Shown here one piece after another: positions 14,421-35,204 of a stretch of 64,000 bases of DNA. The DNA lies in contig NW_015622547.1 of the NCBI RefSeq assembly GCF_000835495.1, positions 3,658,001 through 3,722,000 of the forward strand, in the 5' to 3' direction. Below the pieces are notes generated by a model. The model was given only the letters and a program-made list of their open reading frames with translations, made no database searches and was not told the DNA's origin. The stretch comes from Cladophialophora immunda. Lineage: Eukaryota > Ascomycota > Eurotiomycetes > Chaetothyriales > Herpotrichiellaceae. How positions within the stretch are numbered: position 1 is the first letter of the stretch; every line of letters starts with the position of its first letter. The position numbers and the translations under genes were made by a program.

Positions 14421-15785
14421 TCAGGATACCTTGACTGAGACAGCGGCTGCGTTGTCGATGCGGCCGAAAAACACCCCAGGGGTGTACGTTTCCACCTCTC
14501 CGCTGTAGCGAGCAAGCCCCGGCGCGCCAAAGCTCCATCGCACTTCAGTCGCGACCAAAATGGTGATGGATTGGTCGGTGGAGATCCGCTCGGATGGGAA
14601 AAAGAAACCATGCGTCGTGGTCACGCAGTCTGGACTGCCGGTGAAGCCCATGATTCGAAGGGCCGCATAGGCCGCTTCCTGGAGGGATTCCCCAGAGTCG
14701 ACAGAACCAAGTTTGCTCGCGGCAAGCCATCCTTGGATGACCTTCTTTCCATCCTCGTCTACTGGCGAGACCTCAAGCGGCAGCATCAGGTCTAGATATA
14801 AGGACCCAGACGCCTCATGAGCAGGCTGGCCCTCGCCGTAACAATGCCAAGGTAAAATGGCCGGGAGATCTCCTGACACCGGACGCCAGCGTTTCGACAG
14901 CGTCGAGTCTCGCTTTGCGGTGGAATAGATGAACGAGTAATCACCCTTCCTCTCGCATAGGGACATAAACGCCTCGCAAGGGTCCAGAGTCGGGCAGGAG
15001 CTGGCGCGCGCAGTGCTGATGGCGCCGATCATGGCATAGAAGTGGTCTTCGCCTCGGCGTTGAGTGCGACGATCCATGTTCGACATGACTTGCAGGGCAG
15101 AGCGTTCCTGGTACCCGGCGAGCATGTGCTCTGCAATCAGGTCCTCAAATGCGTCGAGACGCGGGTATCGCTGCCTCTTGTCGGCTGCCGTGGGGACCGA
15201 GCCGTCGAGGCGAGTCAGGGTGTAGCCAAGGCAATTCAGGAAATGGCTGCCTGGGATGATGATCCCGCGGGGCTCCTCGCATGTGATGTAGAGAGCCCTG
15301 CTGTTCGCCGCTTCCTGATACGTCCACGCCCTCGAAACCCATTCCTCCCTCTCCAAAGCATCGAGATGGACAGGGTCGACGCGATCGGAAGTGCTCATCT
15401 GTTCGAGCACAGGGCGTGCGGCCGTGGACAGGACGACAATGACTTCCTCGGCCCGGGAATAAATAAAGCCCATGCTCTCCAAGGTGTGGATTCTCTCCGG
15501 CGTGTCGACGGGCACGCAGAATGCATCGATCCATATGCGAGCGCAGGACGGGCGGTGGCTCACAACGGCGTTCAATGCTGGTATCGTCCGGTCGGAAATG
15601 TCATAACCGGGATGAAAGGGACTGCCTTCTCTTCCCTCGCCCCATGCATAGGAGACACAAGTGAATCGTATGTGCTCGGCATCAGGTGCATCCAAGTTGT
15701 AGGCAGCCAGTTTCCAATGACGCCCTTCAATCTCGATGGAGCCTTGTCCGCACTCGGGATCCTGACTAAGAAGGTACAGCAACAT
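14421..15785 (-). CDS. HET-domain (heterokaryon incompatibility-type) protein
   Basis: Single-exon gene of 454 residues beginning MLLYLLSQ. The three blocks of the HET domain are present in order: FTCVSYAWGEG at about 41-51, IWIDAFCVP at 84-92 and REEWVSRAWTYQE at 146-158. They are followed by the usual less conserved tail with a YAMIGAIS element. HET domains are cell-death effector or signalling domains of fungal non-self recognition, related to TIR domains. There is no attached NACHT, ankyrin or WD40 region, so this is the stand-alone architecture. It lies about 14 kb from the gasdermin/CHAT pair; a functional link is only inferred from the shared theme. Confidence 0.88.
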   Translation of the reverse strand: MLLYLLSQDPECGQGSIEIEGRHWKLAAYNLDAPDAEHIRFTCVSYAWGEGREGSPFHPGYDISDRTIPALNAVVSHRPSCARIWIDAFCVPVDTPERIHTLESMGFIYSRAEEVIVVLSTAARPVLEQMSTSDRVDPVHLDALEREEWVSRAWTYQEAANSRALYITCEEPRGIIIPGSHFLNCLGYTLTRLDGSVPTAADKRQRYPRLDAFEDLIAEHMLAGYQERSALQVMSNMDRRTQRRGEDHFYAMIGAISTARASSCPTLDPCEAFMSLCERKGDYSFIYSTAKRDSTLSKRWRPVSGDLPAILPWHCYGEGQPAHEASGSLYLDLMLPLEVSPVDEDGKKVIQGWLAASKLGSVDSGESLQEAAYAALRIMGFTGSPDCVTTTHGFFFPSERISTDQSITILVATEVRWSFGAPGLARYSGEVETYTPGVFFGRIDNAAAVSVKVS

Positions 15786-16424
15786 GGAGAGGGATTCAGA
15801 GTCCGCTCATATCAAAGAGGACGAGGTTTTGAAGGGGAATCTTGATCAACACACAGATTTCAGCATTTCAGGAATCAGCCAACAGTCCTGAATAGTTGTA
15901 GATGAGAGCCTCACCGACCCTTCATCAGGGCACCTGGCTTAAAGTGTGGCGCAGTATGACAATCAGAAGCCACAGCCACAAGCCACAATCCGACTGACAT
16001 CACGTGTTAGCACCTTACCACGTGAGAGAGGCTTCAACACAGACTGCGCCCGTGAGCGACTCGCTGACCTGGCGACCACACACCTGCACAGTAAGCATCA
16101 GATCGCTGGGGGAAATCCTGCCAACACAAATCGGTCAGTATACAAATGTAACTCCGTACCAAGCACACAGGCTTGACGCGTCACCCGCGATTTCCCACGA
16201 AGTTCAACCTGTCCCTCAGTGAGGAGCAACAATGAAGACGATCTGCCTCGGCGTGGAGGCCCCCTCATGGCGCCCTTCGCCGGCTAAGACGGCACGAGCC
16301 TCCGAAACGAGAATAGCACCAACGTCCCTGCAGACTCTTGCCGGCTGGTCGACTTCAAATTCTGCTCTTCGTGCCGAGAAGCGTTTGTCCTCTGTTGTCA
16401 ATATGTTTTGTCTTAGGCTGAAGC
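15786..16424. other. divergent intergenic region between HET gene and transporter
   Basis: Roughly 640 bp serving as promoter for both flanking genes, which diverge here. No TATA-like box or operator can be assigned with confidence. Confidence 0.5.
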
Positions 16425-17994: not shown

Positions 17995-19655
17995 CTTGCC
18001 CTGCGTGACACAATGCATGCAGACAGACGATGATTACACCGCACCCCTCCCAGAGGTGACGGTTTCAACAGCTTCCAGCCGCTTTCCACGCCAAAGTTTG
18101 GTTCTTCCAATGACGAGACCGGCGCACGCCCTAATACCAGCTAAACTACTTTTGTCGGGATAGATGAGGTACGCCGCAGAAATGACTGCTAGGACATCAT
18201 CCCGAAAGCAACTTGGCGCGGAAGATAAGCTTTGGGCAACAAATTGTCCCATTCACGGGTCGCTGGAAGGTATATTGTTTCTTCGGAAGCCTAGAATGGT
18301 TTTGCTTCCGAGTATATATACCTCTTCCTCCACCTGTGTCCGGGTTTACCTCCATCTACGCCGATGGACCTGATTCTTGTCAGGCATGCCCGATATATCA
18401 GAGAGCATCCGAGACGCATGCGTATATCCCCCAAGTTGGGCGCTACCCTATGGCGATTCAATTGAATCACATTCGTCTTTCTGTCGCCGGCTTACACACA
18501 CCCTTTCCGTGGCGTTCCTTCAGCAGATAGGTACTTTAACTTTCGAGAAGCGGAAGGAGACTCCAGATATCACTCAAGAAGCTGTCTGGATCCATTCAGT
18601 GGCGCTGTGTACCCTTGGAGAAATAGAAAATTAGCTGGTAGCCAAGAGGTAGGGCGGATTCAAGGAGTCGTGCCATCATCAAACTCGGACTCGAATCGTT
18701 CGACATGCGTATATCCCAATCAATCCGGCATCTACTATAGACACAGGCTCCTATGAAACACCACTCATTGGAAATCCAGCTCTCAGAATCCCGCTGTCTT
18801 TGTGGCGCAGGCGGGATGAGCTGAACGCGGGGTGTTGCGGGGTGTTGGCAGGTCAAGACGCCTCTTTCTTGTTGCGGTGAAGCGATGTTTGCTGCCCAAT
18901 CTGCTGTTTGTTTTACATTCCTACTGCACAGCCAAGATTCCTCGGAGCGAACCGAGTCGACAGCCGACGCTGCTTAACGCAAACAAGATCAAACGCTGCG
19001 ATGCCCATGCCCGTCAGCGACGAATCGGGCCTTGTGGAGACAGCTGTGTAGCCGGAGAGGGGCAGAGCTGCAGACAACTGCCAGACGAACTCGGTCAAGT
19101 TGTGTCCCCAACCGCTCTCAGGGCCTCTCGATCGAGCGATTTAGCCTTTGGAGGAGTGGTAGAGTCGCCATTCGTGTGACATGCTGCTGAAGGCTTCCCG
19201 CCCAAGGGATCTTCTACTCCACCGAGCTGAAAAATGCTTCAGCTAGCAATGTTTGCCCAACTTCCCATAGGGCAATGTTGACATCAAATCGCTGCACCGA
19301 CAGGAAGCCGTCATTCGGCTGTGCCGCTACTGGATGCTGTTTTTCGTGAGGACATCCAGAACGTCGTCGTTACACCAAGATCATCAATCATCACCAAGTC
19401 CGGTCAGTCTAGACAGGTCTGTGACATGTGTTCTTCCCCTCGATTGGCCTTGCGGCACGTCCACCCTTAGCTGCAAGCACAGAACATGACGCGACGTCTG
19501 AGTCGCTTCTGGCATCTGCCCGAGCGTATTTATCCAGCACATCCCCCCGCTACCGCCTCTGCGTACGCAGGTCTGTCTTCTAGTTGCCTAATTCCTGGCC
19601 AGCAGGTTGGAAGCAACGCAGGAAGCTTAGGTGCCCCTACGCGAATTCTGTCAAC
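17995..19655. other. intergenic, promoter of the Ppo oxygenase
   Basis: About 1.6 kb with no supported gene. An upstream in-frame ATG at 19584 precedes the chosen oxygenase start by 24 codons. The sequence between looks like leader rather than conserved protein. Confidence 0.5.
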
Positions 19656-22600
19656 ATGGAACAATTGCACAAATTACAGGCAACCATTTTTCAAAATGCT
19701 CCCACCGCTCCAGATGGGCGGACGGATGCCGAAGCTGCAGCCACGCCCTCGGTCAACCAGACGTCGCTACTCCACGATTTAACCCATCTAGGTCGGGAGA
19801 ACGCCGCGACAATGGTCCAGGCCTTCAACACAATGGTGTCGGGACAGCCTCTGAACGATAAAGAGCTGTTGCTCGAACATGGGGTGCACATGCTTCAGTC
19901 TCTCCCTCCCAACAGCGGGCTGGGCGCAAATGCCGCTGGTCGGTTCATCAAGATGCTATGGGACGACTTACCCCACCCACCGGGAACCGTAGCTGGCCCT
20001 ACGACGAGATACAGGAGGCACGATGGAGGCAACAATAACCTCTGGGACCCGGAGCTAGGAAAGGCAGGGTCAGCCTACAGCCGAAGTGTGCCGCCGATGA
20101 AACCAAAAGGGCCCAACTTGCCAGACGTGGAACTCGTCTTCGAACATCTGCTCCGGCGGAAAGAAGGCGAGTTCCGCAAGCACCCATCCGGGCTGAACAG
20201 ACTGTTCTTCTCCTTCGCCACGGTCGTCATCCACGAGTGCTTCCAAACTTCAAGGGACAAGAATTGGGTCAACGAGACGTCCAGCTATGTCGACCTCAGC
20301 ACACTCTACGGAAACACGGACAAAGAACAAAAACGGGTGCGGACGTACAAGAATGGATTGATCTATCCAGATTCGATCGCTTCCGAGAGGATCATGCTGA
20401 TGCCACCGGGCGTCATTGCTGTTCTGATGATGTTCTCCAGGAACCACAACCACATCGCCCAGACGCTCTTGTCCATCAATGAGCAAGGAAGCTATGGTCA
20501 ATGGGACAAACTGACAGAAGCTCAACAAAAAGAGTGAGTCCACCCTACGGAGATATCAAAGTTGGTGAGCTCGCACATCTGACCAAACACGACCACAGGC
20601 AAGACGAAGACATTTTCCAGCTTAGCAGAAACATCAACGTCGGCTTCTTCGCCTCTGTGGTACTGAGAGACTACGTCGCCGCCATCCTGAACACTCCCCG
20701 TGCCAATTCTGAATGGTCTCTCAATTTGGGAGAAGAGATCAAGTCTGGACAGGGAGGACGTGTGGAGAGAGGGTTAGGTAATGCCGTCTCGGTGGAGTTT
20801 GCGGTTCTCTACCACTGGCACGCGGCACTCAGCGCAGCCGACGCCAAGTGGATGGAAGATGTCATTAGTTGGAATCTTCCACACATCAAGTCCGTTGACG
20901 AAATGACGCCCCAGCTCTTCTGGCAGATGACAGGAAAAATCACCAAAGACCTATTGTCTAAGCCTGCTAGCGAATGGACATTTGGAGATCTAAAGCGCGG
21001 TCCGGATGGAAGCTTCGACGACGCCGACCTTGGCCGCCTCATCAAGGACTGCATCGAAGAGCCCGCCCACGCATTCGGTGCTAATGGGACACCGGCAAGT
21101 CTGAAGGTGGTGGATCTCATGGGCCAGCTTCAGGCCCGAGAGATCTTCAACACCTGCACGTTAAATGAGTGAGTCGGAACATATCACTATCGAGATTCTG
21201 CGTGAGATGACCACTGCAAATATGCTGACAACCATTTACTAGATTCCGGAAGTACCTCAACTTGACGGCGTATAAGAGCTTCTCGGAATGGAACGATGAC
21301 CCTGTAGTTTCTCGAGCTGCCGAGCTCTTGTACGGCCACATCGACAACCTCGAACTATATCCAGGTCTGCAGGCAGAGTGTACCAAGCCGCCGATGCCAG
21401 GTAGTGGTGTCTGTCCGGGTCAAACCACTGGACGCGGCATCCTGGATGACGCCGTAGCCCTGGTGCGAGGCGACCGTTTCCTCACCTACGACTTCAACTC
21501 CAATACCCTGACCAACTGGGGCGTATCTAAACTTGCAGACCTCCCAGGAGGCGCATACGGAGGCATTCTCGCCAAGCTCATCTTCAACGGCCTTCCAGGC
21601 GAGTTCACCGGCACGTCGACATATGCTTTGATGCCGTTCTATACCCCCGAGGCCATCAAAGGGATCCTCGAAGGCAACAAAGTGCTGGCCAAGTATGACC
21701 TGAAGAGACCTCCACCAAATGTGATGAGGCTCGTAGGGATTCACACTCAAGAGGGTGTCAAGAAGGCCTTTGAAGATCGCGAAACGTTCCACGTCATGTA
21801 TCAAGCCGCCATCCGCAACTGCACCGACGGGCACGAATTCATGATCGGCTGGGACGATCAGACGCGCCACGACCCACGTTCTGTCATCCTGCACAAGGTC
21901 TTCTTTGAAGAGAACTTTGAGCAGAATCTTACGCAGTACTTCCGAGAAACCGTCAGGAGCCTGATTCACAAGAGCACTCTCAAGTACCCCGACAACCGAA
22001 GGTCGATCGACATTGTCAGAGATGTGTGCAACGTCACGCCCATCATGTGGCTCGCGCGCCGCTTCGCCATTCCGATCAAGGACGCCGTCCACCCGCGCGG
22101 CCTGGTCACGATTCCAGAACTGTTCGACATCTACCTGGTCCTGTTCATGTACCAGAGCTTCAACATCCTGCCGGTCAACGAGTGGAAGTTGCGCGAGACG
22201 GCCGAGACGGTGGCGCCGATCCTGAGACAGATTTTTACGGCTCATCTCCGCACTCAGCGTGGTCTCACGGAGTACATCGTGGACTGGCTCGCCAAGGGTT
22301 CCGCGTACGAGGTCGGCCCCGACGCGGACCGGTTCTACCACGCCATGAACAAGACGGGATTGGATATTGGTGACATGGTAGGTGATTGTATCGGCATGGG
22401 CGCCCCTGTCGCGGGCAATATCACCCAACAAGCGTCCCTCCTCATCAATCTGTACCTCAGCGAGGGATACGAGCAGTACAAGGCGCGGATCGTGGAGCTT
22501 GCGCAGAAGGACGACGATGCCTCAGACAAGGAGCTTTTGGGGTTCGTGTTCGAAGGCATGCGCCACGCCGGTGTCGTGCCGGGCCTCCCTCGCGTGGCTT

Positions 22601-22992
22601 CCAAGGACGTCACCTTCGAAGACGGCGCGCGGGGCCCAGTCGACATCAAGGCCGGCCAGTACTTGCTCATCGCCACGTCCTCGGCCGCCATGGACCCGGC
22701 CGCTTTCCCCAACCCTGAGAAGATCGACCCGCATCGCCCCATGTCGTCGTATACGCTCCTGGGCCACGGGATGCACTACTGCTTCGGCGCCCGGCTGATT
22801 GGACCCGCGCTCGTCGCCACGCTCAAGGAGGTCTTCCGCCTGAAGAACCTGCGTCGCGCCGAGGGCAAGTTGGGCCGCTTCAGCGTCATCGAGCAGGACA
22901 TTGCGGGCGTCAAGGCCAAGATCTATCTCGACGCGAATGCCAAGGAGTCGCCCATCCCGACGACCTTGCACGTCCTGTACGACGAGGAGTAA
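19656..22992 (+). CDS. ppo: psi-producing oxygenase: fatty-acid dioxygenase fused to cytochrome P450
   Basis: Three exons (19656-20533, 20599-21168, 21243-22992) with in-phase GTGAGT introns give about 1065 residues, the usual size for the family. The N-terminal half is an animal-peroxidase-like dioxygenase with the distal histidine in VVIHECF (about His193), the SSYVDLSTLYG block and the radical tyrosine in YHWH (about Tyr364). The C-terminal half is a P450 domain with an ExxR-like EGMRHAG and the heme thiolate loop GHGMHYCFGARL (Cys about 996). The thiolate cysteine is intact, unlike in PpoC-type members, which favours a bifunctional PpoA/linoleate diol synthase-like enzyme. Such enzymes make oxylipins that tune sporulation. 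ATG 19656 (AACATGG) is preferred over 19584. Confidence 0.93.
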
Positions 22993-25948: not shown

Positions 25949-27790
25949 ATGAGGCGATCTACTAGACAGAAACAGCCAAAACGATTCTTTGACGATATAA
26001 CTGTACCCAGAGAACATGAACAGCCAAAAAAAGCAAAAAAATCGGCTCCGGAACCACTTGAAACGCGTCCCGCAGAACAGCCTCCACCACAGGAAGTTAA
26101 AGAACTCACCGACCAACCAACACCTCAATATTCTCCACCAATTCAGGTCCAATTTGTGCCATTCAACCTTCGCTGGATAGAGAACGATCCATTCTCTCTA
26201 TTTATGAAGTTCCTGGGCGAATCAAGTGTTATAGCGATTGTGAACGCGATAAATGTAAGGGCGACTAGCTTAATGGGGCCCCACCAACGTCGAGTGCGAT
26301 CCTGGCACCCGTTGAGCTCTGGAGAACTTCTCTGCTGGCTAGGAATTCTATTTTATCTAGCAAATTATACTGGCAGAAGAAGAGACTATCAGTGGGATCG
26401 ATTGCGTCGATTTATGTCGCAGGAACGGTGGGAACAGATCCATCGATTCCTGACCTTCAATATCGACACTATTCAACCATCACAAATCGACCAATCTTAG
26501 GGCTTTTTACGATCGAGATTAGAGCCTATCTATTCCACTGTTCGCGCTAATTGTTAGGCTGCGATTTATCCATCGTCCTGGCTATCTGTTGACGAGGTAA
26601 TGGTGCCGTTCTGTGGCCGTTCTAGGCACACCGTGAAGTAGAAAGGTAAGCCCATTAAGGAGGGCTTCAAGGTGTGGTGCCTAGGCTGTATAGGCGGCTA
26701 CTATTACGATTGGCTATTACATAGCCCTGTGGAAGGCGCAGAAGGCTGTAATCGCAGACGACCGATCGCGTTTGCGCGAGATGCCAAAGGGACCCCTATT
26801 ATGCTATCGGAGACCTTCCAAGTGCCAGTGGTACTCCTGAAGAGACTGAAAGACCACTATCCTCACCGCAAATGGCTAGTGTTCCTGGACAATCTATTTC
26901 TCAATCTTAACGTTGCTCATACGTTACTAGCCCTCAACATCGGCGTAATGGGCACGACACGCAAAAACTCAAAGGGCCTACCTGAGAAGTTGCTCACGCT
27001 TAAGGACCTCAACCAGGCACTTATCTATGGAGGATACGTTGCAATCGTCAAGGAGAACGTTCTATGCTTTGCCTGGCAGGATAATAACATTGTCCTGGGC
27101 ATTACCACAGCGTTCTCGCTTGATAAGGTCGGCGACTTTATCGTTCGCGACCGTAGACGACCAGGAGATGCCTTAACAAACGCCAGGATCGCCCTACCAG
27201 TGTTCGGCGATGAATGGGTTAAACCACTACCTATTCCGCTCGCGATCGACGCCTATAACCACAGCATGAATGCTGTCGACGTGGCTAACCAGATCCGATC
27301 AGGATTCAGCTGCCACTGACAATGTGAGCGCCGTAATTGGCGCCCACTAGCCTGGTGGTTACTAGATGTGTGCCTGACCAATTCTTTCGTTGTCTGGCGT
27401 TCCAGGCAGTCTCAATCTCGCCGTAATCGCACCCACTTACGCGAGCAGTTTAATCAACAATTGATCGATTCGCTCCTTATGAAAGGCACTGAGCACGAGG
27501 TAGAGAGGCGTCCAACTAGGAGGAGATGTGCCTGGGGCTCTCGACACCCTGAGGACTGTCAACAGGGCGCCAATGAGCATAAAACAGAGCGTCAACAACG
27601 TCGCCGTCGTCGCCAGAACGCTCGGCGGCCTGCGTTGGCCGAGATAACTAACGGATCTCGCGCCACCAAACGCTCAAAAAACACGCAATTTGGCTGCAAT
27701 GCCTGTGGGGTGAATCTATGTATCAAAGGGGGATGCTTTCGTAAATACCATATAGATTTACATAGAAATTTGCTGTGGAATAGTATTTGA
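25949..27790 (+). pseudogene. piggyBac-family transposase with four in-frame stops
   Basis: A 614-codon frame from MRRSTRQKQPKRFF that never shifts but is cut by four stops: TAG at 26498, 26555 and 26639, and TGA at 27317. The domain order is a basic N-terminus, a PGBD-type N-terminal block (WHPLSSGELLCWLGILFY), then the catalytic core. All expected acidic residues are retained: VDEVMV (Asp codon at 26591), FLDNLFL (26888) and NAVDVANQ (27278). The C-terminus carries a Cys/His-rich tail (GCNACGVNLCIKGGCFRKYH) like the family's cross-brace zinc finger. Every stop could come from CAG or CGA by one C-to-T change. No active product is expected. Confidence 0.85.
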
Positions 27791-27827
27791 TGTCTAAATC
27801 TATCCCCGTGGTGGCATCGTTTTGCCA

Positions 27828-27867
27828 AGTGCCAAGAAAAAAAGTGCCAAATCCACGGAACAGGAGA
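27828..27867 (-). repeat. right terminal inverted repeat (40 bp)
   Basis: Reverse complement of 25839-25878 without mismatch. It is followed by TA and then unrelated flank. Confidence 0.92.
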
Positions 27868-27869
27868 TA

Positions 27870-28424
27870 GCATTTGTTTTCGGATGACCACAATTTACAA
27901 GGGGAGTCCGTACGGCGTTTCGAAGCACACTGGTTCTACGTGCCGTCCATTGACGTGCAGCGCGGCAGATAAGGGCAGGATTGCATTGCACTTCTTCGTC
28001 CGCTCGGGTAGATCCTTCAGCGGTTACTACATGAATAATGGACCAGGAGGAACCATACTCGTCTCCACAACACAAAATATCAAGTTTGTGACCGAGGCCA
28101 AAAACGGCACTAGCAGCACGGGAGGGAACATTTAGATACCATTAGTCAAAACCTTATCTCGCCTCTAAGGACTACCATCATCCCCCTGAGGACTGCTCCC
28201 TTTGTGTCGGCGGCAGAGTCGACAGGAAGCAGACTGCCGACCAGGATTCAATTCTCCCATCCCTTCTTGGACATGGAGTAACCCCGTCTGCACTCCATGT
28301 ATTATAGATAGGACCTCTTGATCGCGATGGGTGGTGAATATGGCCTCGATTGCTTTCAACCTCTCTAGACACTCGCGAAATTCCGAATGAGGCGACATGG
28401 TGGGTGGAGGATGGAAGGATAACT
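27870..28424. other. short intergenic stretch with an unassigned minus-strand frame
   Basis: Contains a minus-strand frame at 28165-28398 (77 codons, starting MSPHSEFRECLERLKAIEAIF) that reads like a coiled helical peptide ending in a CRLCRRHKG segment. It has no neighbours or family I recognise. It may be a remnant of a transposon-encoded protein. Support is weak. Confidence 0.3.
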
Positions 28425-28690
28425 GCGGTAGAGGAGGGGAGGATAGCTGCGCTGAGTGGAGGATGGGAGGATGATAGCTGGTAGCTATCTACCGCAGCTA
28501 TCAACCGCAACATCTATCATCCACCCACCGCAGCATCCATCATCCACTCAGCGCAGCAGCTACCTTCGCGTCCTCCACCTATTAGCTACGGTGGAAGACG
28601 GGAAGATAGCTGCTGCGGTGGATGGATGATGGATGCTGCGGTTGATAGCTGTTGTGATTGATAGCTGCGGTGGAGGTTGATGGCTGCTGA
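28425..28690. repeat. hairpin-rich repeat block with short inverted and direct repeats
   Basis: The motif GATAGCTGCGGTGGA and variants recur on both strands. Exact inverted pairs include CAGCTATCAACCGC at 28495-28508 with its complement at 28638-28651, and CTGCGCTGAGTGGA at 28447-28460 with its complement at 28543-28556. The block could fold into nested hairpins. It lies next to a GGGTGAG/CTCACCC-rich GC block (about 28745-28860). I read it as a decayed transposon end or a minisatellite. Confidence 0.6.
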
Positions 28691-29285
28691 GGGCTCGGTG
28701 AAAAAGTTGCAGTTTCGCCAAGAGGAGGTAAATCGACGCCCAGCTCACCCCGCTTACGGACGAGGGTGACGCCGCCCTGCGCTCACCCCGGTCGCACGCG
28801 AGCCAGGGTGAGGCCAGGGTGAGCCCGGTGACGCCTCACCCGTGTCTCACCCACCGTGGGGGCCGCGACGCCTCGCGCCTAGGCACCAAGCGCCCGCCCC
28901 TCGACTCGAAGTTCACCTAGGGGAGATGAACGCGGCTGCTGTGATTGGCCTTTCGAATGCACAGTCGTAAAAACCACCGTGGCTGCCAGCTCAGCCAGTT
29001 AAACGAGAGGACGGTTTAAAAGCGGCGTCGCTAATTCCACACTCGAAAGGCTACTATCTTGACTAGAAAGACCTTTAATCGTCTCAGCGTACTACCTGTC
29101 ACTTATAAATCCGAGTCTACTCGCCTTTACTATGAAGGGGATAGAAGATATATTAATAAAGAATCCCTTTCCCCGCTTTCGCGAGTTTCCCTTTCTTCCG
29201 CCTATCTCTCTCGACGCTACTATCTGTTCGCTCTGCTGTCAGTGCTGGAGGTTCACAGCAGGAAAAGCTGGTCTTCAAAGATAGC

Positions 29286-29513
29286 TTACTTGCCGCTGAC
29301 AGGCAGTGGTGGTGGTATAGCACTCTTAGCGTTCTGTTCTCTCTGGTGGATATCGAACTGGAGCTGTTTGTTCGCTGCACGGGAGATTCTCTCGTCTTCT
29401 CTCTCCTTGCGCCGTTTAGCCTGTTCAGCCAGCTTTATCTCTCGTGCAGTTACACGCATACTCTTACGCTCCTCGATTTGACGTCTTTTCTCAGCCTTCT
29501 CTTGGCCCTCCAT
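29286..29513 (-). pseudogene. probable C-terminal remnant of a Fot1/pogo-type transposase
   Basis: A 75-codon highly charged coiled-coil frame (KAEKRRQIEERKSM...KLAEQAKRRKERED...AANKQLQFDIHQRE) ending in IPPPLPVSGK. This composition, including the QLQ-DIH element, is what I associate with the C-terminal tail of fungal Tc1-mariner (Fot1-like) DDE transposases. The catalytic core is absent from the 1 kb around it, so only a fragment remains. It could instead be an unrelated charged peptide. Confidence 0.4.
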
Positions 29514-29632
29514 CTAGTGCCAGGTGCTAAATCTTAGCGCAGAACTACCTTTATATGCACCCCCCCCGTGCCTAGGTAAAGCTGTGTTTCCCTCGCGTCA
29601 CGGAGTTGTACGACTCTCAGACGAAGCCGGCT

Positions 29633-30532
29633 TTATGGTCCGTGTTCAGAATCCTTCGCCTCGCCGTCTGGGTTAGACGTCTGAAGAAGATCATACGCCT
29701 CCTTGCTCATCCCCGCAAGAATGAGATTGGCCGCGGAAACTCGCTTTTTGTCGTCCCCTTCGTCACCATCATCAAGGACCTCCTCCTCTTCTTCCTCCTT
29801 CCCCATACTCAACTGATGCCAATCTGCTCTGAGTTCCGACTTCAGGACAATCTTCGTTTTCAGCTGCGGGAACCATTTCGCATTCCATTCGAAATACCAC
29901 TCAGTTCCGATAACGTCATAGGCAATGGCGAAAACAAGCTTGTCGGTGATTTCGCCTTCCCTGCGGTGACCGGCGTTCTTCACAACAGCCCCGGACGCCT
30001 CCACCTTCGTGGCGTTGCCGTCAGTGGTTCCAAATTTGGCTTGCCCCGAATGGGAGCTGCGGTCCTTGGTGCTCCTCATCCACGTTGACTCTTCGCAAGT
30101 CAGGAATGCTGAGACCATGTAGGCTTTCCCGCCATTTTCGCGGACTAGCTGTGTCACCTCCTGCGCGAACCTGTCATTCTCCAGCAGTTTTCTAAACTTC
30201 CAGTCGTTTTGTGTCAGTGTGTAACGCTGAATCTGCGCCTTTAGCTCGAACGACTGAGTGGTATTGGTTTTGTTGGTATAGCTGAAGAGCTGCTCCAGAC
30301 GAGCTTTCAAGGTGGTATTCATCCCTGAAGTCATCGAGGCTGTCGGCTCCACAGCAATAGGGTCGGGGAGAAGATTCGGAAGGACTTCTGAGAGCACGAG
30401 GGGACTAGGTTCATCGAGGTTCGGGATGAATTTTCGGCCGGGGTTCAGTGGATTGGCCACTACTCGGCACATGAGCGACGAGACGACATTTCCGTGCAAT
30501 GGGTATGGTAGGACGAAGTATAGATTATCCAT
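29633..30532 (-). CDS. gasdermin-like protein (RCD-1/HET-Q1 type)
   Basis: Single-exon gene of 299 residues starting MDNLYFVLPYPLHGN; ATG context CAGTCATGG. The N-terminus VLPYPLHGNVVSSLMCRVVANPLNPG, a QRYTL...KFRKLL helical block and a DKLVFAIAYDVIGTEWYFEW strand fit my recollection of fungal gasdermin-like proteins, whose size (about 250-300 residues) also matches. A run of Glu/Asp at about 246-261 forms a linker, followed by a basic KKR and a 35-residue tail with one amphipathic helix (VSAANLILAGMSKEAYDLLQ). Known fungal members are held inactive by such a short tail until a protease removes it; the freed N-terminal part then makes membrane pores and kills the cell. The divergent neighbour encodes a CHAT protease, the expected partner. 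Family assignment is by eye and rests partly on context. Confidence 0.7.
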   Translation of the reverse strand: MDNLYFVLPYPLHGNVVSSLMCRVVANPLNPGRKFIPNLDEPSPLVLSEVLPNLLPDPIAVEPTASMTSGMNTTLKARLEQLFSYTNKTNTTQSFELKAQIQRYTLTQNDWKFRKLLENDRFAQEVTQLVRENGGKAYMVSAFLTCEESTWMRSTKDRSSHSGQAKFGTTDGNATKVEASGAVVKNAGHRREGEITDKLVFAIAYDVIGTEWYFEWNAKWFPQLKTKIVLKSELRADWHQLSMGKEEEEEEVLDDGDEGDDKKRVSAANLILAGMSKEAYDLLQTSNPDGEAKDSEHGP

Positions 30533-30947
30533 GACTGTTGTTTGGCACGCAGCGGCAAGCGGTGCTCTGTGGACTCTGGCGTGGTATGATTAAACGACAA
30601 GAAATTCAGAAGAAGCGCACTTCGAGTTCCCGTTGAGGCTCCGGCCGTGTCGCTGCAGCCTGCCCGGGGTCGGCGAATCGGCGCTCCTCCTTCTCCAACA
30701 CCCAACGACGACCTGCATTCACACAGGCTTTTGCACGGAGCGACCTGGACTTTGTAGCTCCATGGCTTACTTCATGGTGACTGTTACCCATTAAACCAGA
30801 TAACACCGCTGATGCCTTTTGAACGGAAGAACAAACAGCCCGAGCCTCACCGCCAGAGTCTTGACGTTCAACTCGCTTCGACGCTGATTCTCGCACCCAG
30901 CTCAAGACTCTAGACGCCGAGTATCTGTTCGGAAGAATTGAAGCACA
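30533..30947. promoter_or_regulatory. shared divergent promoter of the gasdermin-like and CHAT genes
   Basis: The two start codons are 415 bp apart and point away from each other, so this stretch must hold both promoters. Co-regulation is plausible but no defined operator can be seen. No longer open frame is supported. Confidence 0.6.
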
Positions 30948-33900
30948 ATGCAGACATTAACCATCACGGCACTCCAGTCGACTGGAACATCGAGCTGGAG
31001 GGTAGCAGTGTCCAGGGAAGTTTCATTCCAATATGATGCAACCGAAAGAGATGTTCACGATCCTTTTACCTCTGAACAAGAGCGTGAATGCCAGTGGTAT
31101 TTAGAGGAATATGCGACACGCAGTCCGTTTGAGGAAGGACGAGCACGGCGCTTTTCACAATCAATTGAAGAATATGCTCAAGATCTATTTCGCCAGCTTG
31201 ATCTGCGAAGCGTCCTATCGTTGCACCACTCTCCGGCAGACAGGCAGCCAGAACATCTCACGATCGAAATTGCCACCCTTGCAAATCCGAACCCAACTCT
31301 TATCAACCAAGCAGCCTTTCATCGGCTACATTGGGAACTCCTGGAAACTCCTGAGCTTTGGGATTCTTTCTTCTCAAAGGTGACAGTGGTGCGAAAAGTT
31401 CCCCCGGATCACACCCTTACGCCAGAAGCTTCATCGCATACTCCGCCACGTTCTTCAAATTTACCCGACAAGCAGACATACAATGTGCTTCTTGTCGTTG
31501 CGCGTGATTTGCGGGAGCATGACAACGATGCACTTCCGGACTCGGTTCTAAATGCACACCTTCGGATGCAACCGATCCTGGAGACTTTGACAGACAGGCC
31601 TCCACTGAGGGTTGAAGTCGTACGGCCCGGAACATTCGCCGCTCTGGAGCAGCACTTGCGGCACGCCACTCAACTCCACGGGCCTGGATATTTTGACGTG
31701 GTCCACTTCGATATGCATGGCATCGTGAAAATGGTCGCACAAGGCTCGCAAAAAAAGCTGTACGTCTTTTCCCCATGTCGCTAACGCTCAATCTCACTCA
31801 TATGTTGGCCACTGACTTTAAACAGATCCCCAAAAAGCTTCTTGAAATTTGCTCATCCTGACCTCAGCGGACGGCTTCAGCTTGTCTCAGCCTCGCGGGT
31901 GGCGGAGCTTCTCAATGACCATCAAATCGACAGAGTCGTATTGACGGCCTGCAAGACCGCGACAAGCGGAGACGGCATGGACGCAAACTTGGCCAAAACA
32001 TTTGTGTCGAAGGGCATGTCCGACGTCCTAGGCATGTCATTTGAATTCCTGAGCTCTGCGACGACTACGTTTGCCGAAACGTTCTACCGCTCAATCTGTG
32101 CTGACTTGACATCCTTTGCTGAGGCATCGAGCGAGGCCAGGGGAGCCCTTCGTGCCGATGCTCAGAGAGAAGCCAGATTTGGGATCATGGTCCTAGTGGT
32201 TGACTGGTATGTCCCAGTGACCTATGCGTCTACGGTTGATCGTAGATCATCTTACCCTGTCTGCGTGTCTTCCCAGTCAAACATACGGACCCCCGCAAGT
32301 GGAATTGCTACGAAACCGACGCCTGATGCGGCTTTGTTGGTTGGCCGTGAATTCGACGTCCTTCGACTGGAGGCAAAATTGGCAACTAATGCTATCGTGG
32401 CCATGGGCGGGCGCTCAGGCACTGGAAAGTCACGCCTACTGCGGCATCTTTCATATGTTTGGGAAGCTACCAGATTTGCGGACCGAGTCCTTTACGTTGA
32501 TGCGAAATTCGCTTCCGGTAATGGTCAAACTCTTCTTTCAATGGTAATCAACAAATTGCTCTGGTCTGGTGTTTCTTTGCCTCTTTCCGAAAGTGACGAT
32601 CGTATCCTCTCGGAAAATTGGGAATTCTTCGAAAGAACGGCCCTCGACGAACGGACGTCAACAATACTCGTCCTCGACAATTTGGACGATGCTCTTCGAT
32701 TGGTCGAAGCCTGCGACGCGAGTAATATCAACGAAACCATCCTACCGGATCTTCAGAAGTTGTTTAGCATTGCGCGTCGGGCGCCGAACACTTTGAGTTC
32801 CAGGAAAAGCCTGACCATACTGGTCTCGAGTCGTTGGATCGCAAGCCGATGGTGCAATCTATTCGAGATCGAGCTCCCTTACTTTCTGCTCGGCGGACTC
32901 CGTCTTGCATCGGCATTAAATCTTGCGCAGAAGATTCTTGGACCTCCTGTCAGAGAAACTCCATCCTTGATGGCCGAACGGGTTGATGCTTTGGAAGACA
33001 TTGTCAATTTGCTGGACCGATTACCAGGACCGTTATTTGTTGTCTTGCGGCAGTTCCACAAAATGGAAATGCCACTGGCTGAATACTACAACGCCCTTCT
33101 GTGCGGACGGCTTGACAGAAGACTTAAGCTCGGTTCCGAAACCGAACAATTCGAAGTCGGAGGGAGCACGTTCCTCTCGATGTTAACACCAGTGCTGGAG
33201 CCTCGTCTGATGAGCAATTGGTTTAGCATACCGGAACCAGTGGCACTGAGGACCTTTTATAGCTTGTCGGTCTTTTGGAACGAAGGCCCAGAATGGCATC
33301 GGTATACCGATCTGCTGGTGCAAACAGGGATCCTCGAGGGAATCGAACCTGCCTCGCCAACACACGAGAAGGATTTCCTGGAGAAAACGGGAAATATTAT
33401 TTGGCATCTCAAGGATCTTGACGGACTCGATTATGAAGGAAGCAGTATTACCTGGATTCATCCACTGCTTACGCTGAGTCTCCGGAACATGATTCAGGAT
33501 GCAGACCCAGCATGCCATTACCATTTACAAGATGCGCTAGGTCCATCAATCTGGAAAGGTCTCTTCGCGGAGCTACTCCACGGAATGCTTCAGCGTTGGA
33601 AGGCGAAGAATGCCGGGCACACTTCATTCGCAGGGCTTGCGCAATCGTCGAAGAGCGGGAGGCAAAACCTGGCCTTGTGCATAGAGGCATGCCTGCATAC
33701 GCCACTCCGAACCAACGAGTGGCCGCTCCAATATTTCAGCAGTTGGGTCTCTCTTTACCGCTATACGATGACTAGTCGCGAACAATCGGACTTCTTGGCG
33801 TCTTTGAGTAGGGCGTTGCGGAAGGTGGTCAAATTTGTGGACTCAGACGATTCTCCTGAGCTGAGAAACTGGCACTTGATTTGGACAATTCTTCATTGGA

Positions 33901-35204
33901 TCTATGAAATCGTTCGACCAAACATCTCCTGGGATGGCAATCAGAAGCAGGATGAGTTCGCCACCCGACACATCGCCATTGCGAAAGCGGTCTTCGCCAG
34001 ATCCAAAGCGTACTGTGCAAATCTCGAACCTATTCAAAAAGCAATCGCTCGAATCTACAGGCTCGAAGCTGTTATTTTACTCTCGCATTTGCAAATCGAC
34101 GACGCACAAAAGGCATGGGCCAGCCAAAATGACATCGAGGACAACCTCTACGGCATCTGTAAGGACGAAGACTTCCACCGTTTAGACCCTGGTCAGCTCA
34201 ATACCAAGCCTTGGGCACAAGCACTTCTGCATCTACGTCGTTTCCTCTGGCATCGTATGGTCAGCATGTTGACAGAGCCAGAGAACAATGCCAGAGACGT
34301 TCCACGTGAATTCTTCGGCAGGCTCATCGATACAACTTCCAAAGACTGGGGAGATATGCTGCCTGTTGTGGAGCGAATGGGATACCTGCCTCCCGATATG
34401 TCTTCTCAAACAGCTGTCAATTTGTTCATGTCTGGCCAAAGTTCGACTCCTGGAAAGCAACTCGATAGGCTCGAAGCATACCTAAGAGACGGGAATACAG
34501 AGAAAGCGCTCTCGACCTGCCAACTTCTCTTACAACCTGCATACGAAAATGGCGATTGGGGCCAAATCATCAAGTTGACCACAATGATGTTGGACTCCTC
34601 GCGAGATCTGATGTCGATCCCAGAAAAATGGTATCAACTGCACAGCATTGCCGCAATCAGCTCATTCCATCTCGGCAACCATCGTCACGCAAGCATAAAC
34701 TTCGCAAAAGCGGTACACATCCATCCGAGCGATTCGGTTATAGGAGAAGCTGAGAACTTCTTAAATGGCGATCCGCTCGCTCTTCTCAAAACAGGGCTCG
34801 GATCGGTTCCCCCTTCGGGCTATGCTCGCATCTCTATTGCCGTTGCGCTATACCTTTGGCTCCGGTGCGATGCCGAATCTGCAAAAGTAACCCTCAATCT
34901 ACTTTCACCATTTCTCCGTGCGACCGCGGATACAATCCAGGAGCTATTCACGGACATCCTGCAACTTCGCTCTACGATGAGCCAGTGGCCGTTTCTGGAC
35001 CTGCAAGTCATCGAGACCGCCCGAATGTTTGAAGAGATTGAAAGCATAGTGTTTTGTCGAGACGAGGGCACTGGGTGGAAGAATCCCTTGCAGAGAAATT
35101 GGGTTTACTTTGAGGATTCAATATGGCCGCTATATTATGCTTGGGAGGCGAGCAATGGGCAGGAAGCGGGCAAGATCCATCTGGGGCAGGGCAAATCAAA
35201 ATGA
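30948..35204 (+). CDS. CHAT-protease / STAND NTPase NLR-like protein
   Basis: Two exons, 30948-31759 and 31826-35204, with a 66-bp intron (GTACGT...AACAG) give about 1,396 residues. The N-terminal CHAT domain (to about 400) has LHWELLETPELW, then DVVHFDMHG with the catalytic His (about 257) and VVLTACKTA with the catalytic Cys (about 313), and ends in VVDWYVPVTY. A P-loop NTPase follows: Walker A GGRSGTGKS near 465, Walker B ILVLDNLDD near 552, an ILVSSRW sensor near 600 and LDRLPGPL further on. This is the STAND/NB-ARC layout. The remaining roughly 750 residues are helical with TPR-like pairs (for example EAYLRDGNTEKALSTCQLLL, AAISSFHLGNHRHASINFAKAV) and probably sense the ligand. A caspase-like peptidase under NLR control beside a gasdermin-like gene suggests it cleaves that protein. 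Confidence 0.85.

Follow-up and report, generated by a model that had tools for sequence, protein, structure and literature searches.

The window analysed here, 64,000 nt of the black yeast Cladophialophora immunda (Herpotrichiellaceae; contig NW_015622547.1, positions 3,658,001 to 3,722,000), contains two divergently transcribed genes. One encodes a small protein of 299 residues (P0001), probably a gasdermin; the other encodes a 1396-residue protein that joins a CHAT domain to an NTPase region (the CHAT-NTPase protein). The initial annotation, made from the sequence alone, described the genes as divergent, and they lie on opposite strands with 415 bp between their start codons (Table 1). P0001 is a single intronless open reading frame (ORF) that starts MDNLYF. 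The CHAT-NTPase protein shares 100% identity with PV07_11971, a public C. immunda protein; in its splice model one alternative acceptor, 31837, would also keep the frame. The window sits on a 4.11-Mb contig, and the genome searched, 42.2 Mb, comes from one isolate.

Pfam CHAT matches the CHAT-NTPase protein over residues 179–386 (E 1.3e-15, profile positions 81–273 of 289). The His box, HFDMHG, starts at residue 253 and the Cys box, TACKTA, at residue 311; we take the histidine of the HG pair (residue 257, codon 31716–31718) and Cys313 (codon 31950–31952) to be the catalytic residues. The sequences GRSGTGKS (residue 466) and ILVLDN (residue 551) are presumably a P-loop and a Walker-B-like motif, and the labels of the two CHAT boxes are likewise our assignment. 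HFDMHG, TACKTA and GRSGTGKS are all intact, in agreement with the His/Cys dyad and P-loop originally reported. From about residue 440 the protein matches AAA_16, AAA_22, NACHT and nSTAND1, each below its curated Pfam threshold (AAA_16, 22.0 bits against 32.6; NACHT, 16.4 against 26.7). The NTPase is recognisable; its placement in a STAND-type clade is putative. In the C-terminal half, beyond about residue 700, the best Pfam match is only E 0.17, and at E up to 1 the protein gave no match to TPR, WD40, ankyrin or LRR repeats, although divergent repeats may still be present.

A database search with the CHAT-NTPase protein scored 7992 candidates. Among the matches listed, 19 of 39 proteins at E ≤0.001, the query included, combine CHAT with NACHT or AAA_16 in their precomputed domains, and the named relatives come from ascomycete fungi, the basidiomycete Pluteus and a Caldilineaceae bacterium. 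PDB sequences yielded nothing significant (best E 0.47). A PADLOC match to mad8 was set aside; it spans only residues 455–502, the P-loop region.

The P0001 reading frame is conserved in four database homologues (55–78% identity; jgi, ena and lgn sources). The start methionine is aligned in three of them, and P0003 starts at the aligned Met21. One copy was detected in the genome. An acidic linker (residues 246–261) precedes a 38-residue tail in which N269, L270, M275, S276, D281 and L283 are invariant across the five-member family. Among the database relatives of the gasdermin, P0005 has a C-terminal Ribonuc_L-PSP fragment (E 5e-7), perhaps through a gene-prediction merger. Searches with P0001 itself gave no Pfam match over cut-off (best Trans_coact, E 0.11), a best NCBIfam match to NanU far below threshold (E 0.012; 14.7 bits, where the cut-off is 425), and no match of use in PADLOC or in a single-sequence search of PDB sequences.

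Table 1. Features of the divergent gene pair (window coordinates)
Feature	Position	Strand	Basis
Gasdermin-like gene P0001, 299 aa, intronless	29633..30532	-	ORF, homologues, leave-out profile match, fold
Acidic linker, residues 246-261 EEEEEEVLDDGDEGDD, proposed proteolytic release region	29750..29797	-	Translation and alignments
C-terminal tail of 38 residues (262-299), candidate inhibitory segment	29636..29749	-	Translation; six invariant positions in the family
Divergent intergenic region, 415 bp, possible shared promoter	30533..30947	.	Coordinates of both genes
CHAT-NTPase gene exon 1, coding for residues 1 to ~270	30948..31759	+	ATG at 30948; HFDMHG at residue 253
GT-AG intron, 66 bp, between His and Cys boxes	31760..31825	+	Gene model
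CHAT-NTPase gene exon 2, with the Cys box, the NTPase region and a long C-terminal part	31826..35204	+	TACKTA at residue 311; Pfam
P-loop GRSGTGKS, residues 466-473	32409..32432	+	Motif in translation

The gasdermin relation first emerged through the neighbours of other CHAT genes in the genome. A CHAT family search found seven places, three of which, the window gene and two paralogues, belong to the CHAT-NTPase group. A whole-genome search with the CHAT-NTPase protein at E <0.001 returned the same set: itself, C2:3230336–3231952 (−) at E 2.0e-48 and C2:4497011–4497628 (+) at E 4.2e-18, with identities to the window protein of 31% over 581 residues and 27% over 461. A fourth match, at E 0.02, spans residues 441–501 only. 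Each paralogue adjoins a divergent small ORF of similar size, P0045 or P0046, with start-codon gaps of 391 bp (taking the second methionine of the ORF as start) and 686 bp. P0046 makes up exon 1 of PV07_03828 (305 aa), the final part of which is coded 3′ of P0046. The initial annotation had proposed conservation of the pair in related genomes as a check; within this genome, the scope of our comparison, the adjacency recurs at both further CHAT-NTPase genes.

The three sensors all retain the CHAT His and Cys boxes, and two have the P-loop motif. The third, CHAT3 (L025:3163–6302; G000:C2 near 4496163), has both boxes and no GxxxxGK[S/T] motif. Pfam detects CHAT in CHAT2 and CHAT3, and an intron separates the His and Cys boxes in both paralogues as well (splice sites were hand-picked among several candidates). 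At the other four CHAT places, five profiles found no gasdermin-like ORF nearby at E <0.1 (best 0.42). Two strong CHAT places sit on opposite strands within 3 kb of each other, C3:3754656 (+; E 2.2e-36) and 3758429 (−; E 4.4e-32); the window CHAT-NTPase protein does not match them, and they have no gasdermin-like ORF nearby at that threshold.

The three small genes are related to one another. Leave-out profiles, each omitting its target, were run on the six-frame ORFs of the window and 11 genome stretches. A profile of P0047–P0049 found the P0045 ORF at E 1.5e-9 and the P0001 ORF at E 7.8e-5; with P0045 added, and with no member of P0001's close family, it reached the P0001 ORF at E 6.7e-8. 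The joint profile of the P0001 and P0047 families found P0045 at E 8.8e-13, and a profile of the P0001 family only found P0045 at E 5.4e-4 and the third small gene only at 0.23. The only ORFs that any of the five profiles found at E 0.1 were the three small genes and the final exon of the third. In whole-genome single-sequence searches, P0046 found itself and P0045 (5.3e-5), P0045 found itself and P0046 (3.7e-4), and P0047 found P0045 (5.2e-5) in addition to its own pair of exons; these three queries missed P0001, and P0001 missed them.

Profiles that include the paralogues placed RCD-1 first among 177,635 PDB sequences (E 0.0062 and 0.021). Neither a profile of P0001's close family alone nor P0046 alone found a gasdermin among these sequences. 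The best Pfam match of P0045, Paralemmin (E 0.0018), lies under its cut-off and was rejected. Profile–profile comparison with shuffles also points to the gasdermin family. A first AlphaFold2 model, built from five close sequences, was of no use (mean predicted local distance difference test score 29.9). For a low-confidence AlphaFold2 model of the 299-residue protein, gasdermins occupied Foldseek ranks 1–7 and VIA-align ranks 1–11; RCD-1 was absent from the best 50 Foldseek rows and came first only once realigned by VIA-align. The fold check suggested in the initial annotation thus returned a predicted gasdermin-like structure, at low confidence. Because the paralogue-inclusive profile matches, the modelled fold and the recurrent divergent homologues beside CHAT-NTPase genes agree, the 299-residue protein is probably a gasdermin, and the resemblance to fungal gasdermins first noted from the sequence holds.

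In fungi, about 80% of gasdermin genes occur in clusters with protease genes (PMC12881547, PMC10197012), and for about 19% a CHAT gene is present within 10 kb (PMC10197012), as the initial annotation had indicated in general terms. The protease partners include dozens of NLR or NLR-like proteins that carry CHAT (PMC10197012), published examples include fungal NLRs bearing CHAT and S8 protease domains next to gasdermin genes (PMC9815663), and in Podospora a TPR-bearing CHAT protease was shown to activate its paired gasdermin (PMC12881547).

At the window locus we observe the two genes, their divergent layout, the CHAT boxes, the P-loop, gasdermin homology and, at low confidence, a predicted gasdermin-like fold; the layout recurs in two paralogous pairs. 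We consider it likely that the locus is a two-gene fungal pyroptosis-like module in which the CHAT-NTPase sensor cuts the neighbouring gasdermin, a mechanism proposed on the published fungal CHAT–gasdermin model. The CHAT-NTPase protein would be a cytosolic sensor whose C-terminal half detects a signal, and its STAND-type NTPase would drive oligomerisation. Assembly would switch on the N-terminal, caspase-like CHAT domain, which would cut the gasdermin near the acidic linker (~246–261) and free a tail of ~38–53 residues; a cut inside the linker is computed to release 4.0–5.7 kDa. The freed N-terminal domain would oligomerise in the cell's own plasma membrane and kill the cell or hyphal compartment. 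The core of the initial interpretation is thus supported. The pair was originally called a complete sensor–protease–pore unit; this stands for genes, layout and motifs, whereas oligomerisation, cleavage and its site, pore formation, death and the trigger we infer from sequence.

The same biochemistry could serve allorecognition. The pair would then be a heterokaryon incompatibility locus, with alleles that differ between strains, conspecific non-self as the trigger and death after fusion of unlike partners. The window also contains a HET-domain ORF, ~14 kb from the pair. Aspergillus fumigatus is a eurotiomycete. One idiomorph of its hetB is predicted to encode a 1,327-residue CHAT protein (PMC11138114), and gasdermins control incompatibility at het-Q in Podospora and rcd-1 in Neurospora (PMC12881547). 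However, the known gasdermin incompatibility systems have been proposed to stem from older, broader cell-death pathways (PMC12881547); on that view the layout by itself gives no indication of allorecognition, which we regard as unlikely here.

We think it improbable that the gasdermin works independently of its neighbour, acting uncut or through another protease while the CHAT protein targets something else. Cleavage by CHAT in the window pair is a prediction, and the initial annotation's statement that HET-Q1 and RCD-1 are activated by proteolysis is right only for HET-Q1: RCD-1 works without cleavage and is activated on meeting its other allelic form (PMC12881547). Yet each of the three CHAT-NTPase genes that the genome search returned at E <0.001 has a divergent gasdermin homologue beside it, and P0001 has a conserved tail after its acidic linker, whereas RCD-1 has no inhibitory C-terminal domain (PMC11760362). 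That the 299-residue protein is instead an unrelated effector or inhibitor co-segregating with CHAT-NTPase sensors is very hard to credit: its lack of a Pfam match over cut-off, the close-family profile that finds no gasdermin in PDB and the poor structure model would fit, but profile search, profile–profile comparison with shuffles and fold search converge on the gasdermin family.

If the neighbour does cut the gasdermin, the pairs may differ in specificity. P0045, P0047 and P0049 also have an acidic stretch near the C-terminus, which is not seen in P0048, a protein that stops before it. The tails differ between the gasdermin families, and that of P0001 shares little with those of P0047 and P0049, as expected if each protease cuts its own substrate. 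A speculative and rather doubtful extension is that the three pairs form a repertoire of insulated pyroptosis-like lines, with sensors of 27–31% identity across the regions that match, each paired with its own gasdermin through the tail. Pair 3, with no recognisable P-loop, would then use a trigger other than NTP-driven assembly or a relay from a sister pair. If true, insulated pairs would be a natural system for reading protease–substrate specificity and sensor cross-wiring.

Several other elements lie in the window. A DDE_Tnp_1_7 transposase match, presumably piggyBac-like, occupies 26642–27316 (+), ~2.3 kb from the gasdermin gene; short, partial matches to 26500–29600 occur on several contigs, and 28488–28674 is 80% identical to its own reverse complement, an imperfect palindrome. 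The HET-domain ORF is at 14424–15806 (−; Pfam E 1.9e-12). At 19584–22989 (+), successive ORFs match haem peroxidase and cytochrome P450, an arrangement we take to be that of psi-factor producing oxygenases. A scan of the window found no RNA families at the gathering threshold and no tRNA.

CHAT-NLR/gasdermin gene pairs are already in print, and the window pair is a fresh example of an already described fungal cell-death module; the general picture of such modules is unchanged by it. What it adds is a gasdermin family that is invisible to Pfam and was recognised via its neighbour gene, in a black yeast, and a divergent layout found three times in one genome. Three natural pairs make it testable what the sensors detect and whether each cuts its own gasdermin only. 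The literature searched contained no paper naming both C. immunda and gasdermin; among the matches listed, Chaetothyriales and gasdermin met only in PMC10197012, where Chaetothyriales appears just in the reference list.

The closest known systems are the gasdermin/CHAT two-gene clusters (Clave et al. 2022, via PMC10197012 and PMC12881547), which likewise set a small gasdermin gene beside a large CHAT gene, a subset with the CHAT-NTPase sensor fusion of the window pair. The window pair differs in that it has no recognisable TPR, WD40 or ankyrin repeats and its gasdermin family escapes Pfam. RCD-1 of Neurospora crassa (PDB 8jyz, 8jyx, 8jyy) is the best sequence-profile and VIA-align match of P0001, but P0001 has an acidic linker, a tail and an adjacent protease gene, whereas RCD-1 is described without an inhibitory C-terminal domain. 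HET-Q1 of Podospora anserina loses a ~5-kDa C-terminal fragment to a protease (PMC12881547), similar to the release predicted for P0001; HET-Q2, however, belongs to the subtilisin-like serine proteases, and its gene is not a neighbour of the HET-Q1 gene but its idiomorph at a single locus. The bacterial gasdermins (PDB 7n51, 7n52, 7n50), the top Foldseek matches of the 299-residue model, are short-tailed with an adjacent protease gene, as in the window pair; they are anti-phage systems and were absent among the matches listed in the PDB sequence searches.
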